Shown piece after piece: positions 11,258 through 43,177 of a DNA stretch of 64,000 nt. The stretch is from a virus. The notes beneath the pieces were generated by a model that saw only the letters and a program-made list of their open reading frames with translations, did no database searches and was not told the origin of the DNA. Positions within the stretch are counted from its first letter, which is position 1, and every line of letters begins with the position of its first letter. The DNA lies in IMG/VR virus record IMGVR_UViG_3300034107_000273, positions 43,957 through 107,956 of that record. One strand, 5' to 3'. The position numbers were made by a program, and so were the translations under genes.

Positions 11258-11281
11258 CCTGAGCATGTGTATAAACTGCTC
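11258..11281 (+). repeat. 3' stem-loop repeat copy (GAGCA..TGCTC), after hsp20
   Basis: Stem arms GAGCA (11261-11265) and TGCTC (11277-11281), preceded by CCT, with TAAAC before the right arm. It matches the family found after minus-strand genes at 33-39 kb and here lies on the + strand, 9 bases after the hsp20 stop. Confidence 0.7.
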
Positions 11282-11344
11282 AATATTCACTTGGATTTAA
11301 TCATAAGTTTACCAATTATAACAAAAGTATATAGTTTTACACTA

Positions 11345-11350
11345 TATACT
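11345..11350 (+). promoter_or_regulatory. -10 element (TATACT) for pstS, leaderless geometry
   Basis: TATACT ends six bases before the ATG at 11357. There is no clear -35, so an activator (possibly host phosphate regulation) may be needed. This is inference. Confidence 0.6.
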
Positions 11351-11356
11351 ATAAGT

Positions 11357-29276: not shown

Positions 29277-30033
29277 AGTATGTGCCTCTTTTCTTAATTT
29301 ATTATATCATGGTTTAAGTATTTGAAAATTTCGGGGAATATAAATTGATCCTCATAATCCCTATAGTAAATACACTATATCCCCATATGCCCAATAGCCA
29401 AAGAGACGTACCGTTTTTTATAGATCGTAGCCTTTTATATACTCACATTTGTCACATTTTGAGATAATAAAGCTACCCTTGATATAAAGGTTTATAGAGT
29501 GAGGTTTGTTATCTAAGCACATATATATATGATAGCATACTGGTTTTACTGGGCTATATATAGGGTTTGAAGGCTTATTTGATACTAGATATGGGGTTTG
29601 AAATGAGAAATAAATCTTACTGACATTTTTTAGATATGGTTTGGGTGGAGGAAAGTGGAGGATAGTGGGTTATTGGGCGCTTATACAGATGGCGTCGTAA
29701 TGTCCACGGCTTTAAAACCTCCTATCATAAAACCTTTCCTTTGTCAAACCTTCTCTTTCTGGCATGGAGTATATCATCCAAACCTCTATTTGTCAAACCT
29801 TTATAGCTTAAAAGCCCTATAAAAAACCTATACAAAACCAGCCGAAATGTCCAATAATATAATAGAAAGGTTTGATAATATTTAAAAAGATATCCAAAAC
29901 CAGGAGAAAAGGTTTGTTATTCTATAGGGAGTAAAAGGTATGTGGTTTGTCTTATATCCCCCGTCAAAAACGGGGACGCTAAAGCGTTGATCGTAATGTC
30001 TGATAGGATTATTAGCGCCTTCTGGCACGGGAC
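29277..30033. other. 757-bp gene-free region with GGTTTG/CAAACC and CGTAATGTC repeats
   Basis: No convincing gene is visible. The motif GGTTTG or its complement occurs about fifteen times. TCGTAATGTC occurs at 29695 and 29991, with a variant at 29843. Two adjacent hairpins lie at 29959-29975 (CCCCGT/ACGGGG) and 29976-29987 (ACGCT/AGCGT). It holds the extended -10 (TGATATAAT, 29301-29306) of the surface-protein gene. An origin or regulatory centre is possible. Confidence 0.6.
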
Positions 30034-32449: not shown

Positions 32450-32665
32450 TTAATTATAAGGGTTGCTGTTGATTTTGACAAGTTTTGGTGGTGTGATGTT
32501 AGTCACAGGCTCCAGGGTAGGTCCCTTAGCATCTGACTCTTCTAATAGGATAACTATACCCTCACCGTCACAGATGCAGGAAGGCTCTCTAACAAGATCT
32601 GAACAGGCAGTGATTTCAATCAGGGCATCGCAATCAATGCATAGATAATCATACTTAGTCCACAT
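32450..32665 (-). CDS. Zinc-binding protein, 71 aa
   Basis: CIDCDALIEITACSD and CICDGEG give four cysteines for a zinc ribbon. The C-terminal part is Pro-rich. A perfect TGTGA-N6-TCACA lies inside the coding sequence at 32492-32507. Confidence 0.6.
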   Translation of the reverse strand: MWTKYDYLCIDCDALIEITACSDLVREPSCICDGEGIVILLEESDAKGPTLEPVTNITPPKLVKINSNPYN

Positions 32666-32667
32666 AA

Positions 32668-32760
32668 TCAGTCCTTACATATATCGCATAGGGATTCAAT
32701 ACAACAAATAGATTCAACTGAGCACCAATCGCACCAGTCTTTATTAAGATTACAATTCAT
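32668..32760 (-). CDS. Cys-rich micro-protein, 30 aa
   Basis: The protein has seven cysteines in 30 residues (NCN, WCDWCS, ICC, CDICK). It is probably a minimal zinc knuckle. It overlaps the upstream stop by one base. Confidence 0.5.
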   Translation of the reverse strand: MNCNLNKDWCDWCSVESICCIESLCDICKD

Positions 32761-32909
32761 TAGTCAAAGTACCCTTCTGCCCATAAGCCCTGGAGGAAAG
32801 AATAGGTTTTAGCCAAACCTTCTCGTAATTGTTCATTAGATGAACTATCATGAGCAAGCCCTACAAAATGGCTCATCTCATCTAAATCTGTTTTAGTATA
32901 ACCTAACAT
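32760..32909 (-). CDS. Small helical protein, 49 aa
   Basis: MLGYTKTDLDEMSHFVGLAHDS then QLREGLAKTYSFLQGLWAEGYFD, two amphipathic helices. Neighbouring genes overlap by one base on both sides. Confidence 0.55.
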   Translation of the reverse strand: MLGYTKTDLDEMSHFVGLAHDSSSNEQLREGLAKTYSFLQGLWAEGYFD

Positions 32910-32977
32910 TATTCCTCACATTCACATTTATAGTTTGGGTTTTGGACGGGTATTCTACAAAAAGGATGACATTTCAT
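32909..32977 (-). CDS. Cys-rich micro-protein, 22 aa
   Basis: MKCHPFCRIPV..YKCECEE has four Cys and one His. The exact overlap of start and stop codons with both neighbours is the main support. Confidence 0.4.
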   Translation of the reverse strand: MKCHPFCRIPVQNPNYKCECEE

Positions 32978-33186
32978 AGTAGGAAATCATCTCCCTCTAT
33001 GTATCCATAGTATTCGTTATACTGTTGTTTTAGTTCAGGTGAGGCATATTGCATAAACATATTTTCTGCATAGTCTTCCCCTTGTTCTAAGTTGTTATTA
33101 GACCATTGGTCAAACAACTCTTCTGCAATTTCCTGTATCATTGCTCCTGTGATGTGTTCTGCTAGTGTGTCTATGAATTGTTCCAT
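32974..33186 (-). CDS. Hypothetical acidic protein, 70 aa
   Basis: I start at the ATG at 33186, after AGGAGA. The protein is helical and acidic (IQEIAEELFDQWSNNNLEQGEDYAENMF). It is the first gene of the operon running down to 31.4 kb. Confidence 0.65.
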   Translation of the reverse strand: MEQFIDTLAEHITGAMIQEIAEELFDQWSNNNLEQGEDYAENMFMQYASPELKQQYNEYYGYIEGDDFLL

Positions 33187-33214
33187 TTTTTCTCCTATGG
33201 TAGTTATGATATTA

Positions 33215-33243
33215 ATTTTACAGGAAAACTGGGAAAAAAGCAA
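33215..33243 (-). promoter_or_regulatory. Promoter TTGCTT-17-TAAAAT
   Basis: Minus strand: -35 at 33243-33238 and -10 at 33220-33215. The spacer carries TTTTTTCCCA, the same stretch found upstream of promoters at 34.5, 37.7 and 40.3 kb. Confidence 0.7.
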
Positions 33244-33310
33244 CTCCTACGTAATAAAGTTTTTAATGAATGTTTATATTATGTAAAGTGCCCCCGAGCC
33301 GTTTTCCTGG

Positions 33311-33384
33311 CGATCCGTACGAGACTTGAACTCGTGACCTCTACCGTGACAGGGTAGCGCTCTAACCAACTGAGCTAACGGACC
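33311..33384 (-). tRNA. tRNA-Asp (anticodon GTC)
   Basis: Acceptor GGTCCGT/ACGGATC, anticodon arm CTACC-CTGTCAC-GGTAG and T arm with GTTCAAGTC are well formed. It lies between a stem-loop repeat and the next operon. Confidence 0.93.
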
Positions 33385-33391
33385 AATAAGG

Positions 33392-33416
33392 TGAGCAGTT
33401 TTAAATCTTGCTCAGG
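33392..33416 (-). repeat. 3' stem-loop repeat copy, after the DUF932 gene
   Basis: Minus-strand reading: CCTGAGCA..TTAAAACTGCTCA. Arms at 33409-33414 and 33392-33397 form a 6-bp stem 11 bases after the gene's stop codon. Confidence 0.75.
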
Positions 33417-33427
33417 ATTTTTTTTAG

Positions 33428-34444
33428 TTATGCAATCTGCATTACGTTTTGCACAACTTTTAGCAAACGATTTTTTTCTGCGTTAATTGCAGGGTCAAAA
33501 CCACTTGCACTAGCAAGAATACTTTCGTTATTCCCACCACGTGCAGAACGATACCAGTCAAGGCGTTCTGTTAGTGCATTGAAAGCACCCCATGCGTTAC
33601 CAGCAATCATGCCGTTAAACTCGCCTGTATAAATGTCGTTAATAACATCTACCTTGTTTTCCCATTTCTTGAAAGCACCCTTTGAGTCCTTTTCAGGCTT
33701 AGGGTATGCAGAAAGGATAATGTCATTGAAAGACTTAGCATTGACTTCTTTTTCAATCATTGCCTTAGCCATGATGTCAAATTCATCCATGTAAGCATTA
33801 GCAAGACCAAGAGTCTGTCGTGCAATAGCAACCTTACCGCTTGCTGTCTGTGTGTGACGTATCTTGAAAGATTGCTTGATACCATTCTTACGCTTTTTCT
33901 GATTAAGTGCAAGATTGAGAGTGTTAGCGCACACAACACGAACAGGTGTAATGCTTGCTTGAATAGCGATAGAGCCGTCATGTGATGTGTTGATAAGTAA
34001 ATAAGTCTTTACCTTATCTGCAACACCGCTAGGGTCTAGAACAGTTTCACGCTCTAGTGCTAGTGCGCCAAATACTACACGACCGCCCTTGATTGAGCCA
34101 GCAGTTTCCCAACGACCTCCGCCGTCTAGAATGTTATCACCAAATGAGAACAAGTCCTCATTCTGCATAACGTGGTAACGCTCACCAACGACACCAAGAA
34201 TGTCTGTCTGAGAGTTGTCAGTAGGATTGGTACGCAATACATACTGATAGTTTTTATCGCTTGTTAAGTGTGATGGAGTTTGCAAATCCTCTAGACGAAC
34301 ATTCCACCCATTGAGGTTAGCAAGAGCCAACATCTCTGATGTGTTTTTTTCCTCTGTAAAGACTGTACCCAATCCATGCCATGCAGGCTCTCTAAATGAA
34401 GCAAAAGAGGTCTTGCCGTTTTGTATTTCTAGGTCATGTGCCAT
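33428..34444 (-). CDS. DUF932 phage/plasmid-like protein (TIGR03299 type)
   Basis: The start MAHDLEIQNGKTSFASFREPAWHGLGTVF and VGERYHVMQNEDLFSFGD with VVCANTLNLAL are the signature of this family, often found in actinobacteriophages and plasmids. The length of 338 residues is typical. It may act in DNA metabolism or as an RNA/DNA-binding ring, but function is unproven. Confidence 0.88.
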   Translation of the reverse strand: MAHDLEIQNGKTSFASFREPAWHGLGTVFTEEKNTSEMLALANLNGWNVRLEDLQTPSHLTSDKNYQYVLRTNPTDNSQTDILGVVGERYHVMQNEDLFSFGDNILDGGGRWETAGSIKGGRVVFGALALERETVLDPSGVADKVKTYLLINTSHDGSIAIQASITPVRVVCANTLNLALNQKKRKNGIKQSFKIRHTQTASGKVAIARQTLGLANAYMDEFDIMAKAMIEKEVNAKSFNDIILSAYPKPEKDSKGAFKKWENKVDVINDIYTGEFNGMIAGNAWGAFNALTERLDWYRSARGGNNESILASASGFDPAINAEKNRLLKVVQNVMQIA

Positions 34445-34479
34445 GAGTTTATTTTCCTTTTCTTTTTGTAGTTATTTTA

Positions 34480-34583
34480 AGTATAGCAGGATAGGCTGAC
34501 AAATGCAAAGCGGGATAGTTAAAAATGGGAAAAAATGGGGATTATTTTAATGTGTCGTAAATCACAGTGTGAGCTTGATCACG
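34480..34583 (-). promoter_or_regulatory. Control module for the DUF932 gene: promoter plus two GlxR/CRP-type boxes
   Basis: Minus strand: -10 TATACT at 34485-34480, TGTCAG element at 34502-34496, -35 TTGCAT at 34508-34503. Boxes TGTGT-N6-TCACA (34551-34566) and TGTGA-N6-TCACG (34568-34583) lie 73.5 and 90.5 bp upstream of the -10. Confidence 0.75.
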
Positions 34584-34627
34584 CCCCCCGAGCCGCTTTT
34601 TTATGCAACGGCATAAATAAAAATAAG

Positions 34628-34651
34628 GAGCAGTTTTAAAACATGCTCAGG
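34628..34651 (-). repeat. 3' stem-loop repeat copy
   Basis: GAGCA (34628-34632) and TGCTC (34644-34648) with GTTTTAAAAC in the loop, just after the stop of the gene at 34670. On the minus strand a T-rich run follows. Confidence 0.75.
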
Positions 34652-34669
34652 TTTATTAGTAGCCCCCTA

Positions 34670-35101
34670 CTAAATACTTACTCTCTCAATGGAAGAGGAT
34701 AGGTATTGAACTGAGTCTGAACTATAATCAACAGTATCAAAATCAATTTCATGAATTAAGTTTTGTGCCTCTTCTTCATTACGTGCATTAACTGTAATTG
34801 AATACTGAACTTCAACTTCTAGTTCAAATTCTTTTGTTAATTCAAAACCGCAAATGTCTGCAATTTCTTGTGCTTCTGACTCATTAAGCGTACCTGCTTC
34901 AATGGCTTCAAAGGTCCATTCTTGCATTGCTTCTACCATACGATTATGCTCTGCTGCTAAGCCGTATGAACGTTGTGTTACTACGCTGATGTGCTTTTCT
35001 AGTTCATCTATGCGTGTTTTGTTTGATGCTAACTGTGACTCAAGGAATTCTCTTGTCAAGTACATTGGCTTTTCTGTTGTTTCTGTGATTGGTTGGTCCA
35101 T
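34670..35101 (-). CDS. Coiled-coil hypothetical protein, 143 aa
   Basis: Residues about 17-65 form a coiled coil (FLESQLASNKTRIDELEKHIS). A beta-rich C-terminal half (FELEVEVQYSITVNARNEEEAQNL) resembles the small beta-alpha modules elsewhere. Function unknown. Confidence 0.68.
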   Translation of the reverse strand: MDQPITETTEKPMYLTREFLESQLASNKTRIDELEKHISVVTQRSYGLAAEHNRMVEAMQEWTFEAIEAGTLNESEAQEIADICGFELTKEFELEVEVQYSITVNARNEEEAQNLIHEIDFDTVDYSSDSVQYLSSSIERVSI

Positions 35102-35135
35102 AAGGGCTACCTCTTTCTGTTAGTTGTTTAGTTTA

Positions 35136-35165
35136 ATTGTACTGCAGGGCACTGACAAATGTCAA
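35136..35165 (-). promoter_or_regulatory. TGTCAG-type promoter TTGACA-18-TACAAT
   Basis: Minus strand: -35 at 35165-35160, TGTCAG at 35157-35152, -10 at 35141-35136, with 11 bp between TTGTCA and the -10. No GlxR-type box is present because the next gene's coding sequence abuts. Confidence 0.75.
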
Positions 35166-35663
35166 TTACCAAGATGATGCATAAGAAAATGACAACTTAT
35201 CAATTTCTGGTAGGGCAAATAGGCGTTCTAATTGACGGATAGTATTCTTGATATCATTCCAATACCATTCATCAATATCTGTACCACCAAAGAAAAATCC
35301 TGCTTGTGGTGGAAATAGGCTAGGGTCTTTAGTTTCTAGCGCATGCTTACACAGTGCAAGCAATTCTATTAGTTTATCTTGTGAGACATAGTAGTCTCCA
35401 CAGTCATCAATACCATTCTGAACATTCTTGACAAACCAAGCATGTATCTGATTAGCCTTGCGCCAATAAGCACAGGTAACTTCTACACTTGCTCCATAGA
35501 TATCTGTTGCAACATCTGTGAGTTGTGTCAATGCCATTAGGTCATTGAACTTAGGATATACGGCTTCAGGTGATGAATAAGATAATTCATCATTTGCTTG
35601 GAGCGCTTTCCAATTAATTTTTTCTAAATGCTTCTTAGCACTAAGGTACATGTCTAATCCCAT
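35166..35663 (-). CDS. Conserved phage protein (MGLDMYL type), 165 aa
   Basis: The start MGLDMYLSAKKH, the middle CAYWRKANQIHAWFVKNVQNG and the end GFFFGGTDIDEWYWNDI match a widespread phage family without an assigned function. Confidence 0.78.
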   Translation of the reverse strand: MGLDMYLSAKKHLEKINWKALQANDELSYSSPEAVYPKFNDLMALTQLTDVATDIYGASVEVTCAYWRKANQIHAWFVKNVQNGIDDCGDYYVSQDKLIELLALCKHALETKDPSLFPPQAGFFFGGTDIDEWYWNDIKNTIRQLERLFALPEIDKLSFSYASSW

Positions 35664-35701
35664 GGGGGCTTCCTTCTTTCTGTTGTTCTGATATTAATAT
35701 A

Positions 35702-35786
35702 ATTCTAGCAGGTTGGACTGACAAATGCCAATCGTAAATCCTGGGATCTTAAATAGTGGTACGTAAAGGGTGTGATTAAATTCACA
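35702..35786 (-). promoter_or_regulatory. Control module: TGTCAG promoter plus perfect GlxR/CRP-type box
   Basis: Minus strand: -10 TAGAAT at 35707-35702, TTGTCA at 35724-35719, -35 TTGGCA at 35730-35725. The perfect box TGTGA-N6-TCACA at 35771-35786 is centred 71.5 bp upstream of the -10. Confidence 0.78.
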
Positions 35787-35805
35787 TGAGCTCGGGGGCA
35801 AAAAG

Positions 35806-35830
35806 TGAACAGTTTTAATTCATGTTCAGG
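35806..35830 (-). repeat. 3' stem-loop repeat copy with compensatory change
   Basis: Arms TGAACA (35806-35811) and TGTTCA (35823-35828): both arms changed relative to the GAGCA/TGCTC consensus, keeping the stem intact. A T-run follows on the minus strand. Confidence 0.72.
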
Positions 35831-35868
35831 AATGCACCGCCTCGCTATAGCACTGGCAGTAACTTTGT

Positions 35869-35893
35869 TGAGCAGTTTTGCAACCTACTCAGG
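35869..35893 (-). repeat. 3' stem-loop repeat copy after the 140-aa gene
   Basis: TGAGCA (35869-35874) with TACTCA (35886-35891). In minus-strand RNA this gives a U-G wobble, while plus-strand RNA would have a C-A mismatch. Confidence 0.68.
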
Positions 35894-35931
35894 TTGTTTG
35901 GGTTCAGGACTTTAATTGCCTCCCAAATTAT

Positions 35932-36354
35932 TTAGAGATAACGAGCAACCGCATTGTAAGTGCTTGTGCTAACTACTTCCTCATCTGTCATCTTTAGGAT
36001 ACGAATAGCATTAGAGATTTCCTCTTTCTGCTCACGATAGTTATAAACAGAGATTGACTCAAAATCCCTCTCAGGCTCTTTAGGTAAATCCTTGTCTGAT
36101 ACTGTTAGGTCGTAGTCAATGTTGAGAGTGTTGTTCCAGTTGCGATAGTTAGTGCGAAAGTTTTCAGCCTTCTTGATGTTAGCAACCGCATAGTCGCTAA
36201 TCTCTTTCTGCCAAGCCTTACGCAACTTTTCATACTTTGCTTCGTTTGCTTCTTGTGATGCGTAGTCTGCTTCTAGTTTAGCAAGTGCTACTTCTAGTGC
36301 CTTGATTACCTTTGGTGTTGCTATCTTTACTGAGATTGCTTTTTGACGTGCCAT
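35932..36354 (-). CDS. Hypothetical helical protein, 140 aa
   Basis: The protein is Lys/Glu-rich and helical (ALEVALAKLEADYASQEANEAKYEKLRKAW), with a C-terminal NAIRILKMTDEEVVSTSTYNAVARYL. Function unknown. Confidence 0.68.
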   Translation of the reverse strand: MARQKAISVKIATPKVIKALEVALAKLEADYASQEANEAKYEKLRKAWQKEISDYAVANIKKAENFRTNYRNWNNTLNIDYDLTVSDKDLPKEPERDFESISVYNYREQKEEISNAIRILKMTDEEVVSTSTYNAVARYL

Positions 36355-36387
36355 GTGTTTTTCTCTTTTCTTTGGTGGGTTATTTAT

Positions 36388-36410
36388 AGTATAGGGGTTG
36401 GGTGTGACAT
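36388..36410 (-). promoter_or_regulatory. TGTCA-type promoter for the 140-aa gene
   Basis: Minus strand: -10 TATACT at 36393-36388 and ATGTCA at 36410-36405, 11 bp apart. No GlxR-type box was found between it and the next gene. Confidence 0.62.
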
Positions 36411-36418
36411 TTTTAGTG

Positions 36419-36443
36419 TGAGCAGTTTTAATTCATACTCAGG
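36419..36443 (-). repeat. 3' stem-loop repeat copy
   Basis: TGAGCA (36419-36424) and TACTCA (36436-36441), again pairing through a U-G wobble only in minus-strand RNA. It follows the stop of the gene at 36461. Confidence 0.72.
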
Positions 36444-36460
36444 AATAAGCAATTAACTAG

Positions 36461-36628
36461 TTACGCTTGGGCTTTCCATGTTGTCCAGCGTGTGTTGCCA
36501 TTAACGTCTAACTTAACACGAACTGTATCCTTTGATGTTGGTGCGATTTCAAGGATTGTTCCTGTTACCTTTGACTTTTGTGATGTGTAGAGGTCGCCTA
36601 CCTTGTATGTGTTTGTTGCTACTGTCAT
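36461..36628 (-). CDS. Small beta-barrel-like actinophage protein, 55 aa
   Basis: MTVATNTYKVGDLYTSQKS then VTGTILEIAP, VRVKLDVNGNTRWTTW: a compact beta fold I recognise from actinobacteriophages. The ATG at 36628 has an AGGAGA site. Function unknown. Confidence 0.7.
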   Translation of the reverse strand: MTVATNTYKVGDLYTSQKSKVTGTILEIAPTSKDTVRVKLDVNGNTRWTTWKAQA

Positions 36629-36662
36629 TTTATTTCTCCTTTTTAGTTTGTTGTATGTATTA

Positions 36663-36749
36663 AGTATAACATTTCCCACTGACATTTTTCAACTCCATTT
36701 CTGTTATTTCTCACTATTTGAGACGCTTGCGGGTGTGATGTAGGTCACT
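36663..36749 (-). promoter_or_regulatory. Control module: TGTCAG promoter plus GlxR/CRP-type box
   Basis: Minus strand: -10 TATACT at 36668-36663, ATGTCA at 36685-36680, -35 TTGAAA further up. The box TGTGA-N6-TCACT (36734-36749) is centred 73.5 bp upstream of the -10. Confidence 0.75.
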
Positions 36750-36815
36750 ATTGGTAAATCAGGAACACTAATAGGGCTATTATGAATAGCGGAATTATGC
36801 TTTCCATTTATCTCC

Positions 36816-37538
36816 TTACTTTTTACTTGATGAGAATACAACGTCACTCTTTGAGTATACACAAAGTGAGCAAGAAACGCAAGCGGAGCCTTGTTGAGAG
36901 ATTAGGGGAATGGCTTTTTTATTCTCAGGACACTTTGCCCCTACCTTGCCAATCATCTCTTTCATGTCTGCTTGTCCTACTTGAAAGTTTTTTGCGAGGT
37001 ATGCAAGACGAATACCATGATCTGTTTTAAGACCAATACCTATAGCCTTGTTTTCGCTATCTGTAGAATAGTATAAAGATAGATTAGGAATATCTTTAAG
37101 CATTACCGCTGCACTCTTCACTCTTGTATAAACCCAGAATTGAATTTCAGGATTATTAAGGATGACATGCTTCCATGCGAATGTATAAGTATCATTAAAG
37201 AAGTCGCCGTCCCAATGAATACGGAATAGCATAGGGGCTTCACGCTTTACACAATCAGCCTTGAAGTCTGCAATCATCTCTTCAAGCAATGCTTCAATAG
37301 TATCATGATCAGCGTCTTTAACTAATTCCCAATTATGTAATAGGTTTTTCTTTACTGTTGGGAATACCTTTTCCAATTTGCCTGCATAGCAAACACTCTC
37401 GCAGACACTCGTTGCGCCAGGACATGAATAGTTTTTTCCTGCAGGTAGTCCAAAGGTGTTGGCGATACTTGCTTGTTTTCCATTAGGGGTGACGGCATTA
37501 GCGACCTTTCTGTCTTTGCTTCTGAGTAGTTTAGTCAT
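36816..37538 (-). CDS. Gp88-like actinophage protein
   Basis: IANTFGLPAGKNYSCPGATSVCESVCYAGK is the hallmark of the Gp88 family of mycobacteriophages, followed by LFRIHWDGDFFNDTY and FWVYTR. Late CSLCVYS adds Cys ligands. The cysteine pattern suggests an Fe-S or zinc site. Function not established. Confidence 0.85.
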   Translation of the reverse strand: MTKLLRSKDRKVANAVTPNGKQASIANTFGLPAGKNYSCPGATSVCESVCYAGKLEKVFPTVKKNLLHNWELVKDADHDTIEALLEEMIADFKADCVKREAPMLFRIHWDGDFFNDTYTFAWKHVILNNPEIQFWVYTRVKSAAVMLKDIPNLSLYYSTDSENKAIGIGLKTDHGIRLAYLAKNFQVGQADMKEMIGKVGAKCPENKKAIPLISQQGSACVSCSLCVYSKSDVVFSSSKK

Positions 37539-37544
37539 GGTGGG

Positions 37545-37685
37545 TTACTCGCTTTCTTTCTTTAATTTTAGCATTTGGGACTGACATTTTTTTCTATTGT
37601 ATTTCTTTTTATTTGGAACAGCTGAGGCTGCATTAGAACGGCGAAGTTCCATTAACCTTCTTAATTCCTCAGAATTTTTCTTCAT
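37545..37685 (-). CDS. Small basic protein, 46 aa, leaderless
   Basis: MKKNSEELRRLMELRRSNAASAVPNKKKYNRKK then a basic tail. Its 3' part spans the promoter of the Gp88-like gene. TAAGAT lies six bases before the ATG. It is supported mainly by its promoter. Confidence 0.5.
   Translation of the reverse strand: MKKNSEELRRLMELRRSNAASAVPNKKKYNRKKCQSQMLKLKKESE
37565..37587 (-). promoter_or_regulatory. TGTCAG-type promoter for the Gp88-like gene
   Basis: Minus strand: -10 TAAAAT at 37570-37565 and ATGTCAG from 37587, 11 bp between ATGTCA and the -10. The -35 is weak. Confidence 0.65.
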
Positions 37686-37691
37686 AACTTA

Positions 37692-37746
37692 ATCTTATCA
37701 GAAATGGGAAAAAATATCAAATCTCTTAAATGTGATCAATCTCACA
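37692..37746 (-). promoter_or_regulatory. Leaderless promoter with perfect GlxR/CRP-type box
   Basis: Minus strand: -10 TAAGAT at 37697-37692, then ATG six bases on. The perfect box TGTGA-N6-TCACA (37731-37746) is centred 41.5 bp upstream of the -10. TTTTTTCCCAT lies between. This promoter lacks the TGTCAG element. Confidence 0.62.
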
Positions 37747-37767
37747 GGGCCCCCTCGGGCCGTTTTT

Positions 37768-38001
37768 TCAATCTAAATAAACGTACCAATCAACTTCATC
37801 ATCAAATGCAAACTGAACAATTTCTGATTCACCAAAATCATTTGTTATTTGAATGTCATAGTTATCTCCTGTTGAATCACTTTCAATAAAAGTAATTTCA
37901 ACAATCTCATCACCATAACCAATTAGATCCCCAATCTGTAGTGCATCTACAGTTAGCGAATCTGCTTTGACTAGTTCCATGTCAATCATTGTAGCACTCA
38001 T
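37768..38001 (-). CDS. Hypothetical acidic protein, 77 aa
   Basis: DALQIGDLIGYGDEIVEITFIESDSTGDNYDIQIT is a small beta-barrel-like pattern, and the C-terminus is acidic. It is the last gene of the 39.1-37.8 kb operon. Confidence 0.65.
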   Translation of the reverse strand: MSATMIDMELVKADSLTVDALQIGDLIGYGDEIVEITFIESDSTGDNYDIQITNDFGESEIVQFAFDDEVDWYVYLD

Positions 38002-38142
38002 TTAGATAAACTCCGCTAAATCTCTATCCATTATTTCATTCATGTCCACTCCTTGAGTTTCTGCTATGGCTTCCCATAGGTCTGATTCTGTATAGTTTCC
38101 ATCAGGATACCATTCTGCTAAAAGTGAGTATAAGTCTGTCAT
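38002..38142 (-). CDS. Small acidic protein, 46 aa
   Basis: MTDLYSLLAEWYPDGNYTESDLWEAIAETQGVD, a helical acidic micro-protein between two genes with touching ends. Confidence 0.6.
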   Translation of the reverse strand: MTDLYSLLAEWYPDGNYTESDLWEAIAETQGVDMNEIMDRDLAEFI

Positions 38143-38466
38143 TTATTCTAATCCCAATCCTAATTCATAGCCTGCATCTTCTTCCCAATAGTCTGCCTCA
38201 TCTTGTGGCAACCATGGGTCTAAGTGGTGTTGTTCAATAATTGCAAACGCTGGAGCGTGGCTCATTCCCTTATAGAATACTCCGTCTGGCATCGCAATCT
38301 GGCGCATGGCATCATTTTCATGGTATGCGTCAATAGCATCTATGCAAGGCTGAACCATGCTTAGTGGTACTGGTGGATAGTGATTACCTTGTAAGTGATA
38401 ACCAATAGCCTGTTCAAGTGTTATGTCTAGGTTTTCTGCTAAGTCCATCGCTGTATTGTATCCCAT
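38143..38466 (-). CDS. Hypothetical protein, 107 aa
   Basis: LENLDITLEQAIGYHLQGNHYPPVP-like start, then VQPCIDAIDAYHENDAMRQIAMPDGVFYKGMSHAPAFAIIEQHHLDPWL. His residues are frequent. A phage family of this type exists but its function is unknown to me. Confidence 0.7.
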   Translation of the reverse strand: MGYNTAMDLAENLDITLEQAIGYHLQGNHYPPVPLSMVQPCIDAIDAYHENDAMRQIAMPDGVFYKGMSHAPAFAIIEQHHLDPWLPQDEADYWEEDAGYELGLGLE

Positions 38467-38684
38467 TATCGTGTTACCACCATTCCTGTTTTGTAGAAAG
38501 TTTTTGTGTGCATTTTGCCTGAAGGTTCAGACAAGTTAATTGTTGAGTATTCATTAGCAAGTCCATGGTCAATAAACTTTTGATAAACTTCAACGGCAGA
38601 TAGGCAATCGCTATAACGACCAACCCAAGTAGTAGTAGGGTCTGAGTCATAGGTACAAGTGACTGAGTATAGGTATTCGTTCAT
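38466..38684 (-). CDS. Hypothetical beta-rich protein, 72 aa
   Basis: YLYSVTCTYDSDPTTTWVGRYSDCLSAVEVYQKFIDHG is one beta-hairpin plus helix unit similar to other small proteins here. The ends overlap the neighbours by one base. Confidence 0.65.
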   Translation of the reverse strand: MNEYLYSVTCTYDSDPTTTWVGRYSDCLSAVEVYQKFIDHGLANEYSTINLSEPSGKMHTKTFYKTGMVVTR

Positions 38685-38875
38685 TAGTTATTCTCCTTAT
38701 AGTTTTCGTTCATTATACTTTCAGCATACCATGCACAGTATTCATTTTCAAGCGACACGCCCTTGTTGCAATCGCAAAATTCTGAGTCGTATTCCTCGCC
38801 ACCATTACCAAAAAAGAGGACACCCTCATCATGGCAATCAACGCAATCAACCAAAAAGTCTAGTAAGTTTCCCAT
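38684..38875 (-). CDS. Zinc-binding protein, 63 aa
   Basis: DCVDCHDEGVLFFGNGG and FCDCN give a DnaJ-like C-x2-C..C-x-C ribbon. Acidic end. Operon member. Confidence 0.62.
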   Translation of the reverse strand: MGNLLDFLVDCVDCHDEGVLFFGNGGEEYDSEFCDCNKGVSLENEYCAWYAESIMNENYKENN

Positions 38876-38879
38876 TTAT

Positions 38880-39089
38880 TTATTCTCCAATCTTTACGGC
38901 TACTGTAGCCCAAAAGTCTTTTATGCCACGTGTTGGCGATACCTGAATTGCATACGCCTCAAAGTCTGAGCCGTACCAAACTGAGTCACGCTTTTCAGCA
39001 TGAACAACAACACCCTCATCATGGCGAGAGTGTGAGCGATAGTATTTTCCTACTAGTAGGCTTTCTATTGTATAAGGTTTTGCTGACAT
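38880..39089 (-). CDS. Hypothetical protein, 69 aa
   Basis: MSAKPYTIESLLVGKYYRSHSRHDEGVVVHAEKR with a beta-rich end. The ATG at 39089 is chosen because the promoter lies just upstream. It is the first gene of a six-gene operon. Confidence 0.65.
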   Translation of the reverse strand: MSAKPYTIESLLVGKYYRSHSRHDEGVVVHAEKRDSVWYGSDFEAYAIQVSPTRGIKDFWATVAVKIGE

Positions 39090-39133
39090 TAGCAACCTGC
39101 TTTCTTTTTGTTTATTTAACTTATTACTCTGTA

Positions 39134-39255
39134 ATCCTATCATGCGAGGCAGACAAAAAACTAATTACTAGCGAGTAATCTTAAATAGTGAGACGCTCAG
39201 AAAATGTGAGAAAAATCACAACCACGTAAAGTTATCCACAAGAGCCTGTGGAAAA
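39134..39255 (-). promoter_or_regulatory. Control module: promoter, perfect GlxR/CRP-type box and DnaA-like boxes
   Basis: Minus strand: -10 TAGGAT at 39139-39134, TTGTCT at 39156-39151 (11 bp apart). The perfect box TGTGA-N6-TCACA (39205-39220) is centred 73.5 bp upstream of the -10. TTATCCACA (39232-39240) and TGTGGAAAA (39247-39255) lie beyond it, facing each other. Confidence 0.75.
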
Positions 39256-39284
39256 CCCCCCGAGCTTTTTTATTTGAAAAGATC

Positions 39285-39305
39285 AAGCAGTTTTAAAACT
39301 TGCTT
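39285..39305 (-). repeat. 3' stem-loop repeat copy with second compensatory change
   Basis: AAGCA (39285-39289) pairs with TGCTT (39301-39305): both arms differ from GAGCA/TGCTC and still pair. Loop GTTTTAAAAC. It follows the stop of the gene at 39318. Confidence 0.75.
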
Positions 39306-39317
39306 AGGTTTTTTATT

Positions 39318-39524
39318 TTATTTTAGTAAAGCGTGTAATTCTGGCAGTTGGCAAATTTCTTTTGTGCAAGCATCATAGAATTTATTTTCATCAAATCTAG
39401 GATTGTCTGCACTGAACCATTCACTGAATTCAAAAATTAAATCTTGAAAAGTTTTTAATTCAATTTCATTTGCAAACTGATTTAGAATTTTTGCAGTTTC
39501 AACGTAGTCTTTACGTGTCATCAT
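39318..39524 (-). CDS. Hypothetical helical protein, 68 aa
   Basis: MMTRKDYVETAKILNQFANEI and FSEWFSADNPRFDENKFYDACTKE resemble a small family common in actinophages. Function unknown. Confidence 0.68.
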   Translation of the reverse strand: MMTRKDYVETAKILNQFANEIELKTFQDLIFEFSEWFSADNPRFDENKFYDACTKEICQLPELHALLK

Positions 39525-39685
39525 TATAGGCTCACCAATTTTTCTACATAGTGTGAAATTTGATTGTATGCATTAGCGCATTGATAACAATAAGTCTCAG
39601 TAGGAATTCCACCAAGCATTAGCGCATCAATTCCTGAATAAACCAACTCTGTTGAGTTGCAATTAATTACTTGACACTCTTTCAT
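39524..39685 (-). CDS. Zinc-ribbon protein, 53 aa
   Basis: Cys at positions 4, 9, 33 and 36 (KECQVINCN; YCYQCANAY) form a ribbon. It overlaps both neighbours by one base. Confidence 0.6.
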   Translation of the reverse strand: MKECQVINCNSTELVYSGIDALMLGGIPTETYCYQCANAYNQISHYVEKLVSL

Positions 39686-39888
39686 TATTCTGCCACCTTT
39701 AGAATTGCGTATGAGCCATTTTTATTTATTTCATCAAGAATAGGTTGCAAGCGTGAGCCAACCAATTCCTTTAGCATTTCTTCAAGCATTTGGACTTGCT
39801 CTTGCTTAGGAAGTGCAGCCATTGCCAGTGTGATAGGGTGTCCTGATTTGAATTCTGTTACGAATTTTAGATTATGTTCAACGTTCAT
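39685..39888 (-). CDS. Hypothetical helical protein, 67 aa
   Basis: LAMAALPKQEQVQMLEEMLKELVGSRLQPILDEINKNG is a long helical segment. Function unknown. Confidence 0.62.
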   Translation of the reverse strand: MNVEHNLKFVTEFKSGHPITLAMAALPKQEQVQMLEEMLKELVGSRLQPILDEINKNGSYAILKVAE

Positions 39889-39907
39889 TTATTTTATTTC
39901 CTATTCT

Positions 39908-40105
39908 TTAGTTTGAGTTAGTAAGTGTGCGAGTGCCACGTAGTGTTCCTGTAACACCTAGGGCATCACAAGATAGTTTTACAGATACGCCAACAGGTAA
40001 TTGTGTTGGGTATTGTGAGATGAATTGAGCAACAGCACCTTGTGAGGCGAAGTTGATTTTTTTTGTTGAACCTGAAAAGGTTTCTAGTGTTACAGTGTAA
40101 GTCAT
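39908..40105 (-). CDS. Hypothetical protein, 65 aa
   Basis: MTYTVTLETFSGSTKKINFASQGAVAQFISQYP, a beta-beta-alpha unit. It is the first gene of this operon. Confidence 0.65.
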   Translation of the reverse strand: MTYTVTLETFSGSTKKINFASQGAVAQFISQYPTQLPVGVSVKLSCDALGVTGTLRGTRTLTNSN

Positions 40106-40138
40106 TAAGTGACTCCCTTTCGTTTGTTTGATAAGACT

Positions 40139-40359
40139 ATCTTACCATTTGGGGCTGACAAATTAGGGCATTTATTTGCTAGGCTCATTGTGATTTGCAT
40201 CACACTTATTTGCTAGGCTCACTGCCTTATTTATCTTTATTTAATTGTTATACCTACAAGGGTACCAGATAAGTTTCAGGAAGTCAAAACGACACGCCGT
40301 AAAATGGGAAAAAATTTGTGTGACCTTAAACACATAAGTTATACACAGCCTGTGGAAAA
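40139..40359 (-). promoter_or_regulatory. Control module with GlxR/CRP-type boxes, 16-bp direct repeats and DnaA-like boxes
   Basis: Minus strand: -10 TAAGAT at 40144-40139, TTGTCA at 40161-40156. The perfect box at 40189-40204 is centred 52.5 bp upstream of the -10 and is flanked by direct repeats TTATTTGCTAGGCTCA (40172-40187, 40206-40221). A second box TGTGA-N6-ACACA lies at 40319-40334. TTATACACA (40339-40347) and TGTGGAAAA (40351-40359) follow. Confidence 0.72.
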
Positions 40360-40395
40360 CGCCTCGGGCCGTTTTTTATGCATGGATCTGAATTT

Positions 40396-40458
40396 TTATA
40401 AATTAGATTTCCAATAAATAAAACCAAACACAATCATTGCAATCATTACAACCAACAT
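40396..40458 (-). CDS. 20-aa membrane micro-protein, paralogue A
   Basis: MLVVMIAMIVFGFIYWKSNL is one membrane span. The reason to believe it is real is a near copy at 41350-41412 in the same position, last in an equivalent operon. Confidence 0.6.
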   Translation of the reverse strand: MLVVMIAMIVFGFIYWKSNL

Positions 40459-40461
40459 TTT

Positions 40462-40599
40462 TTATTCTCTTTCTAATTCTGTGTAATCAACAACAACAAA
40501 ATCAAGTCGTTCCAATGGAATAACTTTTAACCAAGATAGTGCAGACTCAAAGTTATCATCCTCAATGGTGACGGATAAATCAAAATTAAAAACTGGCAT
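40462..40599 (-). CDS. Small beta-alpha protein, 45 aa, paralogue A
   Basis: MPVFNFDLSVTIEDDNFESALSWLK parallels the protein at 41500-41649 (MATFEFNTFINVEADSYDEAI). The pattern is a strand, a VE-x-D turn and a helix. Confidence 0.62.
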   Translation of the reverse strand: MPVFNFDLSVTIEDDNFESALSWLKVIPLERLDFVVVDYTELERE

Positions 40600-40763
40600 T
40601 ATTTATTCTCCTTATAAAGAAAGTCCCACGCCTTACGGCATAACACAATTGAATTGCAATTGTCACAACAGATAACACCATGCTCATTTAATTCTAAATC
40701 ATACATGTCAATCATGGCAGTTACTGCACCACATACAGATTTTACAGGCACATAGGTACTCAT
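40599..40763 (-). CDS. Zinc-binding protein, 54 aa
   Basis: VCGAVTAMIDMYDLELNEHGVICCDNCNSIVLCRK has a C-x2-C pair and further Cys. It overlaps both neighbours. Confidence 0.6.
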   Translation of the reverse strand: MSTYVPVKSVCGAVTAMIDMYDLELNEHGVICCDNCNSIVLCRKAWDFLYKENK

Positions 40764-40948
40764 TATTTCTCACACTCACATTCTAAAGCAGATAGGTCAA
40801 AGTCGCAATGCTTGCAACCTTGAAACAAAAAGTGTTCATTGCAATAAATTGCAGTTTGCATTTCCTCGCAACACAAGAATTGTTTTGTGCCACGCAAAAA
40901 GACATTTGTTAAAGACATAGGGAAAAGGACAAGTGTAGGGGTACTCAT
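40763..40948 (-). CDS. Cys-rich protein, 61 aa
   Basis: The second half is Cys-rich: FLCCEEMQTAIYCNEHFLFQGCKHCDF and ECECEK. This gives two zinc-site halves. An internal ATG (MSLTNVF) is an alternative start. Confidence 0.6.
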   Translation of the reverse strand: MSTPTLVLFPMSLTNVFLRGTKQFLCCEEMQTAIYCNEHFLFQGCKHCDFDLSALECECEK

Positions 40949-41121
40949 TAGTTACTCACATACCAATCTGTCCATGTAGGGAATTGTTCAGGGTCACTAT
41001 CATAGTAGTAACGCTCAATGTTATTTTCACAATCCATGCAGAAAGTAAATTGTTCATCTCCAATTTCAGAGATAGCGGAAAGCATAGGTTTATGCTCATG
41101 TGTTTTTGTTAATGTAGTCAT
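40948..41121 (-). CDS. Small zinc-binding protein, 57 aa
   Basis: MTTLTKTHEHKPMLSAISEIGDEQFTF then FCMDCENNIERYYY and PTWTDWYVSN. It is the first gene of the 41.1-40.4 kb operon. Confidence 0.62.
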   Translation of the reverse strand: MTTLTKTHEHKPMLSAISEIGDEQFTFCMDCENNIERYYYDSDPEQFPTWTDWYVSN

Positions 41122-41178
41122 TTTATGACCACCTTTCTTTAGCGGATTTCTTTACCACTTTTATTTTCTTATACTGCA

Positions 41179-41298
41179 AGTATAGCCTATAAGTCTGACA
41201 TTTATCAACCTACTAGCCAGTAATTCCAGATAGTGAGACGCTCAAGTAATGTGATAAAGGACACACTTACTTAAAGTTATCCACAGAAGTTATCCACA
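41179..41298 (-). promoter_or_regulatory. Control module: promoter, GlxR/CRP-type box and two DnaA-like boxes
   Basis: Minus strand: -10 TATACT at 41184-41179, ATGTCAG from 41201, -35 TTGATA upstream (18-bp spacer). The box TGTGA-N6-ACACA (41250-41265) is centred 73.5 bp upstream of the -10. TTATCCACA occurs twice, at 41277-41285 and 41290-41298. Confidence 0.75.
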
Positions 41299-41315
41299 GG
41301 CGCCCCGAGCAAAAA

Positions 41316-41349
41316 ATCGCAGCTTTTTATTTCTGCGATCTTTTTTTAT
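41316..41349. terminator. Bidirectional terminator
   Basis: ATCGCAG (41316-41322) pairs with CTGCGAT (41333-41339). A T-run follows on the plus strand and an A-run precedes, so both strands get a U-tract. It replaces the GAGCA stem-loop found at this position in other modules. Confidence 0.82.
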
Positions 41350-41412
41350 TTATAAATTACTTTGCGAATAAATAAAACCAAAAACAATAAATGCAATCAT
41401 CACAACTAACAA
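41350..41412 (-). CDS. 20-aa membrane micro-protein, paralogue B, TTG start
   Basis: The start is TTG at 41412, six bases after GAGGAG. The product reads (M)LVVMIAFIVFGFIYSQSNL and differs from paralogue A at three positions plus start codon usage. Confidence 0.6.
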   Translation of the reverse strand: MLVVMIAFIVFGFIYSQSNL

Positions 41413-41413
41413 T

Positions 41414-41503
41414 TTATTTCTCCTCAATTTCATCTAGTAGATCCCATAGTGCAGTTTCTAATTCTTTAGAAACTAAATCTAATTTTTCTTGTAGTGTTTT
41501 CAT
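41414..41503 (-). CDS. Small helical protein, 29 aa
   Basis: MKTLQEKLDLVSKELETALWDLLDEIEEK is one long amphipathic helix. It contains the ribosome-binding site of paralogue B at its end and overlaps the upstream stop. Confidence 0.5.
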   Translation of the reverse strand: MKTLQEKLDLVSKELETALWDLLDEIEEK

Positions 41504-41649
41504 TCTGCATTCTCCAATTCATTTATGTCTGCGACATAGACATTGTTTTTATTTATTCCATAGTTTAATTGGAATTCAAATACAGTGATAGCCTCATCAT
41601 AGGAATCAGCCTCAACGTTTATGAAAGTATTAAATTCAAATGTAGCCAT
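41500..41649 (-). CDS. Small beta-alpha protein, 49 aa, paralogue B
   Basis: MATFEFNTFINVEADSYDEAITVFEF matches the 45-residue protein at 40462-40599 in pattern and operon position. Confidence 0.62.
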   Translation of the reverse strand: MATFEFNTFINVEADSYDEAITVFEFQLNYGINKNNVYVADINELENAE

Positions 41650-41663
41650 TCTTTATTCTCCCT

Positions 41664-41771
41664 TTATAGTGTTTTTCCGCAGTGGTTACAAGGTTTTCCT
41701 TGGTGGTCTATGCTAAGGGCATCATAGTTTGTGCCCTTCCAACAATGGTGGCATACGATTACAAAGTCCAT
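41664..41771 (-). CDS. Zinc-ribbon protein, 35 aa
   Basis: CHHCWKGTNYDALSIDHQGKPCNHCGK is a minimal two-knuckle ribbon with Cys at 7, 10, 28 and 31. Confidence 0.62.
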   Translation of the reverse strand: MDFVIVCHHCWKGTNYDALSIDHQGKPCNHCGKTL

Positions 41772-41941
41772 TATTCTGTTACCGCCTTATCTGTTATCAT
41801 TTTAAGAATTAACTGTAACTGTTCTGTAGTTAGTAGTGCTTGAGCGCAACCCCAAGCAAATGAAAGCGCAAGCGCACTATCTCCATAGTGCTCATTAGCA
41901 AGAGTGTTTATCTCTTGCGTTATCTCAAAATTAGTTTTCAT
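41771..41941 (-). CDS. Hypothetical helical protein, 56 aa
   Basis: MKTNFEITQEINTLANEHYGDSALALSFAWGCAQALL and QLQLILKMI. Coupled at both ends by one-base overlaps. Confidence 0.6.
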   Translation of the reverse strand: MKTNFEITQEINTLANEHYGDSALALSFAWGCAQALLTTEQLQLILKMITDKAVTE

Positions 41942-42036
41942 TATTTATTTTCTTCTTTCTTTAGTAGTGATAGGGCAAGGGCAAGACTTTGCTTGCGCTG
42001 GGCTTCTACGTGAGCCTTGTATTCTTCAAGTGTCAT
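41941..42036 (-). CDS. 31-aa micro-protein, paralogue A
   Basis: MTLEEYKAHVEAQRKQSLAL.. is a basic amphipathic helix. Its near twin lies at 42625-42720 with many synonymous differences, which argues for selection on the protein. Confidence 0.68.
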   Translation of the reverse strand: MTLEEYKAHVEAQRKQSLALALSLLKKEENK

Positions 42037-42067
42037 TTATCTGACCTTTCTTTTTCTTTATACTGTA

Positions 42068-42144
42068 ATTGTAGCATGGGGGTCTGACAAATTGGGGGAT
42101 ATCCATGGGCGTGTCGTAGAATTATTTTTGTGATGTTGGTCACA
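42068..42144 (-). promoter_or_regulatory. Control module: TGTCAG promoter plus perfect GlxR/CRP-type box
   Basis: Minus strand: -10 TACAAT at 42073-42068, TTGTCAG from 42090. The perfect box TGTGA-N6-TCACA (42129-42144) is centred 63.5 bp upstream of the -10. Confidence 0.76.
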
Positions 42145-42159
42145 AACGGCCCGAGCAAA

Positions 42160-42190
42160 ATTTGCAGCTGTTACACTGCAAATCTTTTTT
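42160..42190. terminator. Terminator hairpin
   Basis: ATTTGCAG (42160-42167) pairs with CTGCAAAT (42176-42183), then a T-run on the plus strand and a shorter one on the minus strand. It directly follows the minus-strand stop at 42190. Confidence 0.78.
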
Positions 42191-42288
42191 TACTTATTGC
42201 CAAACATGTTAAATATTTCATCAACCTGTTCATCAGTTAAGTGATCTAACTGAATTGCTTTTTCAAATTCAAAGAAATCTTTTTCCAT
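42190..42288 (-). CDS. Small acidic protein, 32 aa
   Basis: MEKDFFEFEKAIQLDHLTDEQVDEIFNMF is a helical, EF-like acidic segment without a full calcium loop. Last gene of its operon. Confidence 0.55.
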   Translation of the reverse strand: MEKDFFEFEKAIQLDHLTDEQVDEIFNMFGNK

Positions 42289-42482
42289 TATTCTGTTTCC
42301 TCGTTTTCTTCTAGTGCATCTTGAAAGTCATAGAGTGCCTCATTGTATGCGATTGGGTCGCACTCTTTTAGTATTTGCGAAGGGTAAAAAGTTAATTGTC
42401 CTATAGTTACAACAGGATAAGAATCATCTAGCATTTCATCAAATAATTCTTTACTAGCGAAAGCCATTTCAAAATCTAACAT
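42288..42482 (-). CDS. Hypothetical acidic protein, 64 aa
   Basis: MLDFEMAFASKELFDEMLDD then FYPSQILKECDPIAYNEALYDF. A similar pattern is common in actinophage small genes. Function unknown. Confidence 0.65.
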   Translation of the reverse strand: MLDFEMAFASKELFDEMLDDSYPVVTIGQLTFYPSQILKECDPIAYNEALYDFQDALEENEETE

Positions 42483-42628
42483 TAGTTTTCTTCTTTCTGT
42501 AGTAGGTAAGTATTAGTTAGGGAACGATTATTATTTGAGAACATAGACTCTATAACCGCTTTATCTTTTAGTGATTGAGCAATTCTTTTATCTTGTTGCT
42601 CTTTTAGAATTCTATCAAATGTGCTCAT
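42482..42628 (-). CDS. 48-aa protein, paralogue A
   Basis: MSTFDRILKEQQDKRIAQSLKDKAVIESMF.. is a near match to the plus-strand protein at 43458-43604. It is basic and helical. Confidence 0.68.
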   Translation of the reverse strand: MSTFDRILKEQQDKRIAQSLKDKAVIESMFSNNNRSLTNTYLLQKEEN

Positions 42629-42720
42629 TTGTCTGAGCCTTTCTTTAGTAGGGACATGGCTTGCAAGGTGCTTGCCTTGCGTTGCGCCTCAACGTGCGCC
42701 TTGTATTCTTCTAGTGTCAT
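42625..42720 (-). CDS. 31-aa micro-protein, paralogue B
   Basis: MTLEEYKAHVEAQRKASTLQ.. ending SLLKKGSDK. First gene of its operon, as is its twin at 41941-42036. Confidence 0.68.
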   Translation of the reverse strand: MTLEEYKAHVEAQRKASTLQAMSLLKKGSDK

Positions 42721-42755
42721 TTATTTAACGACCTTTCTTGTTGTTTATACTAGCA

Positions 42756-42822
42756 ATTCTAGCATGGGGGTCTGACAAATTAGCCTATTTGTTAGGGTGT
42801 GTCGTGTGTGACCTTAGTCACG
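42756..42822 (-). promoter_or_regulatory. Control module: TGTCAG promoter plus GlxR/CRP-type box
   Basis: Minus strand: -10 TAGAAT at 42761-42756 with TGC before it, TTGTCAG from 42778. The box TGTGA-N6-TCACG (42807-42822) is centred 53.5 bp upstream of the -10 and overlaps the stop codon of the next gene. Confidence 0.72.
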
Positions 42823-42987
42823 CCACAGGAATGGATTACCTGTAGCCTCATAGCCGTCACGCCATGAACAGCGAGGATAGACAGTGTGACTAGAAACATA
42901 GCCACACTCTGGGCAGATAACGTTTGCTAGTCGTGAGCGCATGGTTTCATAGCCCTCTGCATTTCTATTTTCAAACAGTGAGTTCAT
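42814..42987 (-). CDS. Zinc-binding protein, 57 aa
   Basis: NVICPECGYVSSHTVYPRCSW carries three of four zinc ligands. The start MNSLFENRNAEGYE follows GGAG. It is the only gene of its unit. Confidence 0.65.
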   Translation of the reverse strand: MNSLFENRNAEGYETMRSRLANVICPECGYVSSHTVYPRCSWRDGYEATGNPFLWRD

Positions 42988-43021
42988 TTGGAACTCCTTT
43001 CTTTATTTTCTTTATACTAGT

Positions 43022-43177
43022 ATTCTAGCACCTACCACTGACAAATTTGGAGATTTTTTGGGCGTGTCGTAGAACTATTTTTGTGATCCTCATCACATGG
43101 CCCCCGAGGCGTGTGAGCGACATCACATGCGACACGCCGTGTTTAGATTTGCTTTTGTCAGTCCTAACTGTTATACT
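43022..43177. promoter_or_regulatory. Divergent control module with two perfect GlxR/CRP-type boxes
   Basis: Minus promoter: -10 TAGAAT at 43027-43022, TTGTCAG from 43044. Plus promoter: TTGTCAG from 43155, -10 TATACT at 43172-43177, -35 TTGCTT. The boxes at 43082-43097 and 43112-43127 are 30 bp apart, and lie 62.5 and 92.5 bp from the minus -10 and 82.5 and 52.5 bp from the plus -10. Confidence 0.78.

Follow-up and report, generated by a model that had tools for sequence, protein, structure and literature searches.

Candidate host DnaA sites beside CRP-type boxes in promoter modules of an environmental phage family

Three promoter modules in a 64,000-nucleotide stretch of phage DNA (the whole of which is called the window here) carry pairs of consensus DnaA boxes next to CRP/GlxR-type boxes, and the same combination recurs throughout a large family of related phages. 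We consider it reasonably probable (roughly 60%) that these composite promoters are under the joint control of host DnaA, bound at the boxes, and a host Crp/GlxR protein.

DnaA boxes and promoter modules in the window

The sequence-only reading had named six DnaA-box-like motifs in three control modules, and a sequence search found all six exactly where it had placed them (Table 1). It had put them 4–12 bp beyond GlxR-type boxes, and the gaps measure 11, 4, and 11 bp in modules 1, 2, and 3, respectively, the CRP-type boxes of modules 2 and 3 being imperfect. All six sites fit TTWTNCACA, the E. coli DnaA box consensus, of which TTATCCACA is the best binder (PMC5835720). Taken alone, three exact copies of TTATCCACA in 64 kb are only mildly above chance (0.82 expected; three or more in 4 of 100 shuffles), and boxes with one mismatch occur in the window at chance level (25 versus 24). 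All three exact copies fall inside 2.1 kb (p ∼0.003, calculated by hand as 3 × (2067/64000)^2); a fourth in the 107,956-bp record (G000:C1:2217) lies within a 677-aa open reading frame. Chance was nevertheless rejected as an explanation: the count in the window is weak on its own, but the enrichment across the family is overwhelming, and the decisive support for the motifs as DnaA boxes comes from conservation in relatives, not from the window count.

Table 1. Coordinates of the boxes, promoter elements, genes, and origin-like element in the window
Feature	Position	Strand	Comment
Conserved core of origin-like element (AAATCTTACTGAC ... GTGGAGGAAAGTGGAGGATAGTGG)	29606..29703	+	Syntenic with the element of relatives
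Iteron-like CAAACC/GGTTTG-type repeat cluster	29500..29999		16 per 500 bp versus a mean of 0.95
69-aa gene	38880..39089	-	Downstream of module 1; ATG at 39089; longest ORF begins at 39143
-10-like hexamer TAGGAT	39134..39139	-	Module 1 promoter; position kept 64/65 bp past the CRP box in relatives
Conserved element TGAGCGTCTCA	39189..39199	-	Module 1, downstream of CRP box
CRP/GlxR-type box TGTGAGAAAAATCACA	39205..39220		Module 1
DnaA box TTATCCACA	39232..39240	+	Module 1, exact
DnaA box TTTTCCACA (mioC/R5 type; reads TGTGGAAAA)	39247..39255	-	Module 1, inverted relative to the box at 39232
65-aa ORF	39908..40105	-	Downstream of module 2; read from the sequence
Perfect CRP-type box TGTGATTTGCATCACA	40189..40204		Second in the module 2 intergenic region
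Imperfect CRP-type box TGTGACCTTAAACACA	40319..40334		Module 2
DnaA box TTATACACA (R2 type)	40339..40347	+	Module 2
DnaA box TTTTCCACA (reads TGTGGAAAA)	40351..40359	-	Module 2
57-aa gene	40951..41121	-	Downstream of module 3; 80 or more relatives
Promoter-like TTGATA-18-TATACT	41179..41208	-	Module 3
Element TGAGCGTCTCA	41234..41244	-	Module 3
Imperfect CRP-type box TGTGATAAAGGACACA	41250..41265		Module 3
DnaA box TTATCCACA	41277..41285	+	Module 3; forms a direct pair, at 13 bp, with the box at 41290
DnaA box TTATCCACA	41290..41298	+	Module 3; direct-pair partner of the box at 41277
Terminator-like hairpin ATCGCAG..CTGCGAT between A/T runs	41317..41339		Just outside the module 3 DnaA boxes

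Because the module genes lie on the minus strand, all six DnaA boxes are upstream of the promoters. Along that strand, modules 1 and 3 run from the DnaA boxes through the CRP-type box, TGAGCGTCTCA, a palindrome-like and partly degenerate ATTACTnGCTAGTAAT, and a TGTCAG-like sequence to the -10 and the start codon; in module 2, the CRP-type box beside the DnaA boxes is imperfect, and another one, which is perfect, lies closer to the gene. The genes are all short (57–69 aa); a scan of the module 1 and module 3 genes gave no Pfam match. Since promoter sites of the TTGATA-18-TATACT type are no more frequent in the region than in shuffles, the one listed for module 3 rests on the conservation of its position.

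As in CRP/GlxR operators, the boxes are TGTGAN6TCACA palindromes, imperfect beside the DnaA sites of modules 2 and 3, and their spacing from the promoter is constant in most relatives where it could be placed. The window has eight perfect ones, at 32492–43127, all among the minus-strand genes; DnaA boxes are missing beside most of them. This distribution suggests that a host Crp-type regulator controls the genes at 32492–43127 broadly. Another motif, GGCGTGTCG/CGACACGCC, is present at 40287–40297 and in many modules of relatives, ahead of CRP boxes and of -35 hexamers with the sequence TTGAC, and is frequent where DnaA boxes are missing; it contains GACAC, which we take to be the WhiA core.

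Recurrence and arrangement of the boxes in relatives

Relatives were collected through the module 1 gene (20), the module 3 gene (at least 80), and a pattern of CRP box plus GAGCGTCT (120 stretches), and were collapsed to 107 distinct, non-redundant modules. The sequence-only reading had proposed looking for the same boxes in relatives, and they do recur: exact TTATCCACA lies at most 150 bp upstream of the CRP box in 59 of the 107 modules, versus 0.2 on average, and never more than 3, in shuffles, and the downstream side, which served as a control, has none. Perfect CRP boxes throughout the family show the same association, in that 238 of 665 distinct ones lie within 60 bp of an exact DnaA box, whereas none lies that close to the reversed motif. 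Exact boxes are also found in all 23 long records of relatives (2–9 each), where the reversed motif is only scattered. Upstream of orthologs of the 57-aa gene, 24 of 42 distinct regions contain an exact box, and if a CRP box is near the start, the DnaA boxes usually lie immediately upstream of it.

The extended consensus of the boxes in these modules is (A/G)(A/G)GTTATCCACAG. Among the 59 box-bearing modules, 27 have a single box, 19 have boxes in the same direction, and 13 have inverted boxes; most direct pairs have a spacing of exactly 21 bp, which is seen in both orientations (11 and 8 cases). Because TTATCCACA pairs at 21 bp are also found in many other viral contigs, mostly without a CRP box, the pairs alone are not specific to the family. 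Two unusual arrangements were seen: fused sites, TGTGAnnnnnnTCATGTGGATAAC, where a CRP-type box overlaps at its 3' end with a DnaA box, occur as two copies 42 bp apart (L264:14492 and 14534; L289:2533 and 2575), and L263:3270–3405 (G005) holds seven DnaA boxes, six of them exact, with a near-perfect 21-bp period in an AT-rich stretch.

Other parts of the module are rigidly spaced. The distance from the CRP box to GAGCGTCT is 6 bp in 104 of 107 modules, and wherever a -10 could be placed, it mostly lies 64 or 65 bp from the CRP box, which would put the CRP box ∼85 bp upstream of the start. The element TGAGCGTCTCA, whose GAGCGTCT is at a fixed distance, and the palindrome ATTACTnGCTAGTAAT that follows it are candidate sites of further regulators. 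The gaps between DnaA and CRP boxes are variable (9–12 bp or mostly 23–60 bp; overall 9–87 bp), as is box orientation; one orientation is strongly phased at a gap of 11–12 bp, a subset that may reflect common descent. When modules were compared pairwise, boxes were fully kept in 48% of pairs versus 25% for random 9-mers of the flanks. On average, boxes of related modules are no more identical than their flanks are, whole boxes tending to be either retained or missing. Since 48 of the 107 modules have no box, DnaA would be a dispensable, optional part of this module type.

From these arrangements we infer how the promoters might work and what purpose they might serve. Following the direction of transcription, a full module would consist of the end of the upstream operon with its terminator-like hairpin, one to three DnaA boxes, the CRP/GlxR box, TGAGCGTCTCA, ATTACTnGCTAGTAAT, TGTCAG, and the -10. 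Host DnaA would bind the box pair cooperatively, host Crp/GlxR would sit beside it at its position ∼85 bp upstream of the start, and the two would jointly set promoter output, so that small accessory phage genes would be coupled to the Crp signal and to the replication state of the host (the level of DnaA or perhaps of DnaA-ATP). As to the direction of the effect, activation by DnaA seems slightly favored, given that the boxes are placed ahead of the promoter without overlapping it; their variable orientation and gap (9–87 bp) are unlike a tightly phased class I activator.

That same variability would suit a sink. In such a case the boxes, like datA, would titrate host DnaA on replicating phage genomes and halt further initiation of host replication, and their proximity to promoters would reflect the free intergenic DNA there. 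The 2–9 exact boxes of each long record would be multiplied by phage copy number, and plasmids carrying DnaA boxes do disturb initiation in E. coli (PMC5835720). However, the boxes are concentrated next to CRP boxes (in stretches chosen around boxes, 54 have a CRP box nearby, 26 belong to the origin-like element described below, and 33 lie elsewhere), and the phage of the window has only a handful of them, so we regard a decoy function as unlikely.

Replication origin and the identity of the regulators

The sequence-only reading had offered two interpretations of the region. Regulation by host DnaA, tying the operons to replication state, appears the best supported, given that the boxes are conserved true boxes, lie upstream of promoters, and are not accompanied by a detectable phage DnaA gene, whereas the alternative that the region at 39–41 kb is a replication origin found no support, since a conserved core and iterons lie ∼10 kb away at 29.5–30.0 kb. 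The combination of dense boxes, AT-rich unwinding region, iterons, and core that characterizes a DnaA/iteron origin was not found at the modules, and the local GC-skew profile, which the sequence-only reading had proposed checking, has no clear switch at 39–41 kb.

The window at 29500–30000 is noncoding and contains a AAATCTTACTGAY core, three GTGGAG repeats at a 10-bp period, and dense CAAACC/GGTTTG iterons. Many of the 23 long records of relatives have one tight cluster of DnaA boxes adjoining AAATCTTACTGAT and three GTGGAG repeats. Scanning for the GTGGAG core yielded 97 distinct elements, 80 with an exact DnaA box and 59 with at least three; typically there are three, spaced 33/34 and 11/12 bp. 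The phage of the window has the core at 29606–29703 and the iterons at 29500–29999 but no DnaA boxes there; it has apparently lost the boxes of this element while keeping those of its promoter modules. One relative (G001) likewise has no boxes at the element (L397), but the separate region that contains its module genes has kept an exact box pair. Judging from these two phages, promoter boxes seem to be kept independently of origin boxes. The element at 29.5–30.0 kb is a better candidate for the replication origin than are the modules at 39–41 kb, and the DnaA boxes at the element of the family suggest that these phages probably use DnaA for replication. A broader interpretation, which we advance tentatively, is that a family-wide program integrates DnaA and Crp/GlxR signals at composite promoters and has the same boxes at the origin, with expression and replication both gated by the host cell cycle and the origin boxes lost in single lineages.

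Could the modules be secondary replication starts, at which bound DnaA, aided by transcription, opens the DNA and loads helicase? The family does have an origin-like element at which most copies carry DnaA boxes, and in lambda, DnaA, transcription, and origin activation are coupled (PMC8203912), but with the core and iteron cluster ∼10 kb off and no skew switch at the modules, we find this improbable.

If the modules are instead promoters bound by DnaA and Crp/GlxR, both regulators would be supplied by the host, because neither a DnaA C-terminal domain (DnaA_C, PF08299) nor a Crp-type helix-turn-helix (HTH_Crp_2, PF13545) was detected in the 107,956-bp record, which is possibly incomplete; phage-encoded DnaA and Crp were rejected on these grounds. 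The terminase is 53–54% identical over its full length to those of Streptomyces BE-type phages, and a GP88-family protein is closest to those of mycobacteriophages; these similarities point to an actinobacterial host. We compared the boxes with the dnaA/oriC loci of 12 small-genome actinobacteria, which may not include the host of this phage. In the loci, TTATCCACA is the commonest form and TTTTCCACA ranks among the next. Counts of TTATCCACA and TTTTCCACA were 36 and 8 in the loci and 71 and 19 in the phage modules, and spacings of 10–12 and 20–21 bp in the loci are close to the preferences of the modules; the phage boxes thus share the spectrum and spacing of actinobacterial origins, albeit in genomes that may not be the host's. 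Searching genome contigs for the module of CRP box plus GAGCGTCT gave 37 chance-like matches across unrelated phyla, which indicate no host. The window also encodes a PstS-like phosphate-binding auxiliary protein (11267–12400), and a PstS search of 394 genomes of one actinobacterial class gave a best identity of ∼40% and no clear host. No DNA similarity to catalogued phages was found; the Nanopelagicales phages that have been isolated are of a different, 39-kb kind (PMC10202952).

The same comparison bears on whether the 9-mers are bound by some other phage or host protein with a taste for GTTATCCACAG. Our main reading is built on sequence evidence throughout, and 48 of the 107 modules carry other motifs (e.g., GGCGTGTCG) at the same place, both of which leave room for such a protein. 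However, the tolerated variants TTTTCCACA and TTATACACA, the flank preference, and the pair spacings match actinobacterial dnaA/oriC boxes, and the variants also fit the E. coli consensus (PMC5835720), making a different protein a doubtful candidate. Least probable by far is that the boxes are arms of RNA hairpins or terminators and no protein site, an outcome that would have overturned the sequence-only reading: module 1 folds clearly better than shuffles (z = -3.2) and 13 of the 59 box-bearing modules have inverted pairs, but module 2 does not fold comparably (z = -1.0), module 3 folds worse than shuffles (z = +1.5) and has a direct pair, the boxes all point the same way in 19 modules of relatives and stand singly in 27, and the probable terminator of module 3 lies in a hairpin of its own beside the DnaA boxes. 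With box pairs that are both direct and inverted, a hairpin cannot be the general explanation.

Significance and relation to known systems

For the open question of whether lytic phages sense the cell cycle of their host, direct handles are few. In the case described here, a large family of environmental phages has consensus sites for the host initiator in defined promoters beside CRP-type sites, and a candidate replication origin of the family is indicated as well. Natural variants, with or without module boxes and with or without origin boxes, permit direct tests. If our reading is true, the virus may read the replication state of its host when switching on the module genes.

Several known systems resemble parts of this arrangement. 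The Stanwilliamsviridae (Streptomyces BE-type phages, e.g., Yaboi and Karimac) are related through the terminase (53–54% identity), but nucleotides 1–69,000 of Yaboi contain neither a perfect CRP box nor clustered DnaA boxes. Mini-P1 and pSC101 exemplify DnaA/iteron origins, and the element of the family, typically with three DnaA boxes, an AT-rich flank, GTGGAG triplets at a 10-bp period, and CAAACC iterons, is similar to these and to oriC; it lies, however, at 29.5–30.0 kb and not at the modules, and in this phage its boxes appear to be lost. The titration locus datA is likewise a group of consensus DnaA boxes in noncoding DNA, whereas the boxes here are dispersed over promoter modules and form no dense cluster in this phage.

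The lambda promoter that is stimulated by DnaA is pR. DnaA stimulates lambda transcription and the activation of ori-lambda (PMC8203912), and our phage, as predicted from its sequence, would similarly exploit host DnaA for its own transcription; lambda has one replication-linked unit, whereas here there are several promoters of small accessory genes, with box pairs and CRP-type boxes, across a large family. In bacteria, DnaA is also a transcription factor that regulates the dnaA, mioC, and uvrB promoters (PMC5835720, PMC8203912, PMC6015884), which similarly have consensus boxes, often clustered, upstream; the promoters here differ in that they belong to a phage and that a CRP-type box and two more conserved elements separate the boxes from the -10. 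Since we found no description of composite DnaA and CRP phage promoters in the open-access literature that we searched, the repeated architecture appears to be new, whereas DnaA-stimulated phage transcription as such is already known from lambda.
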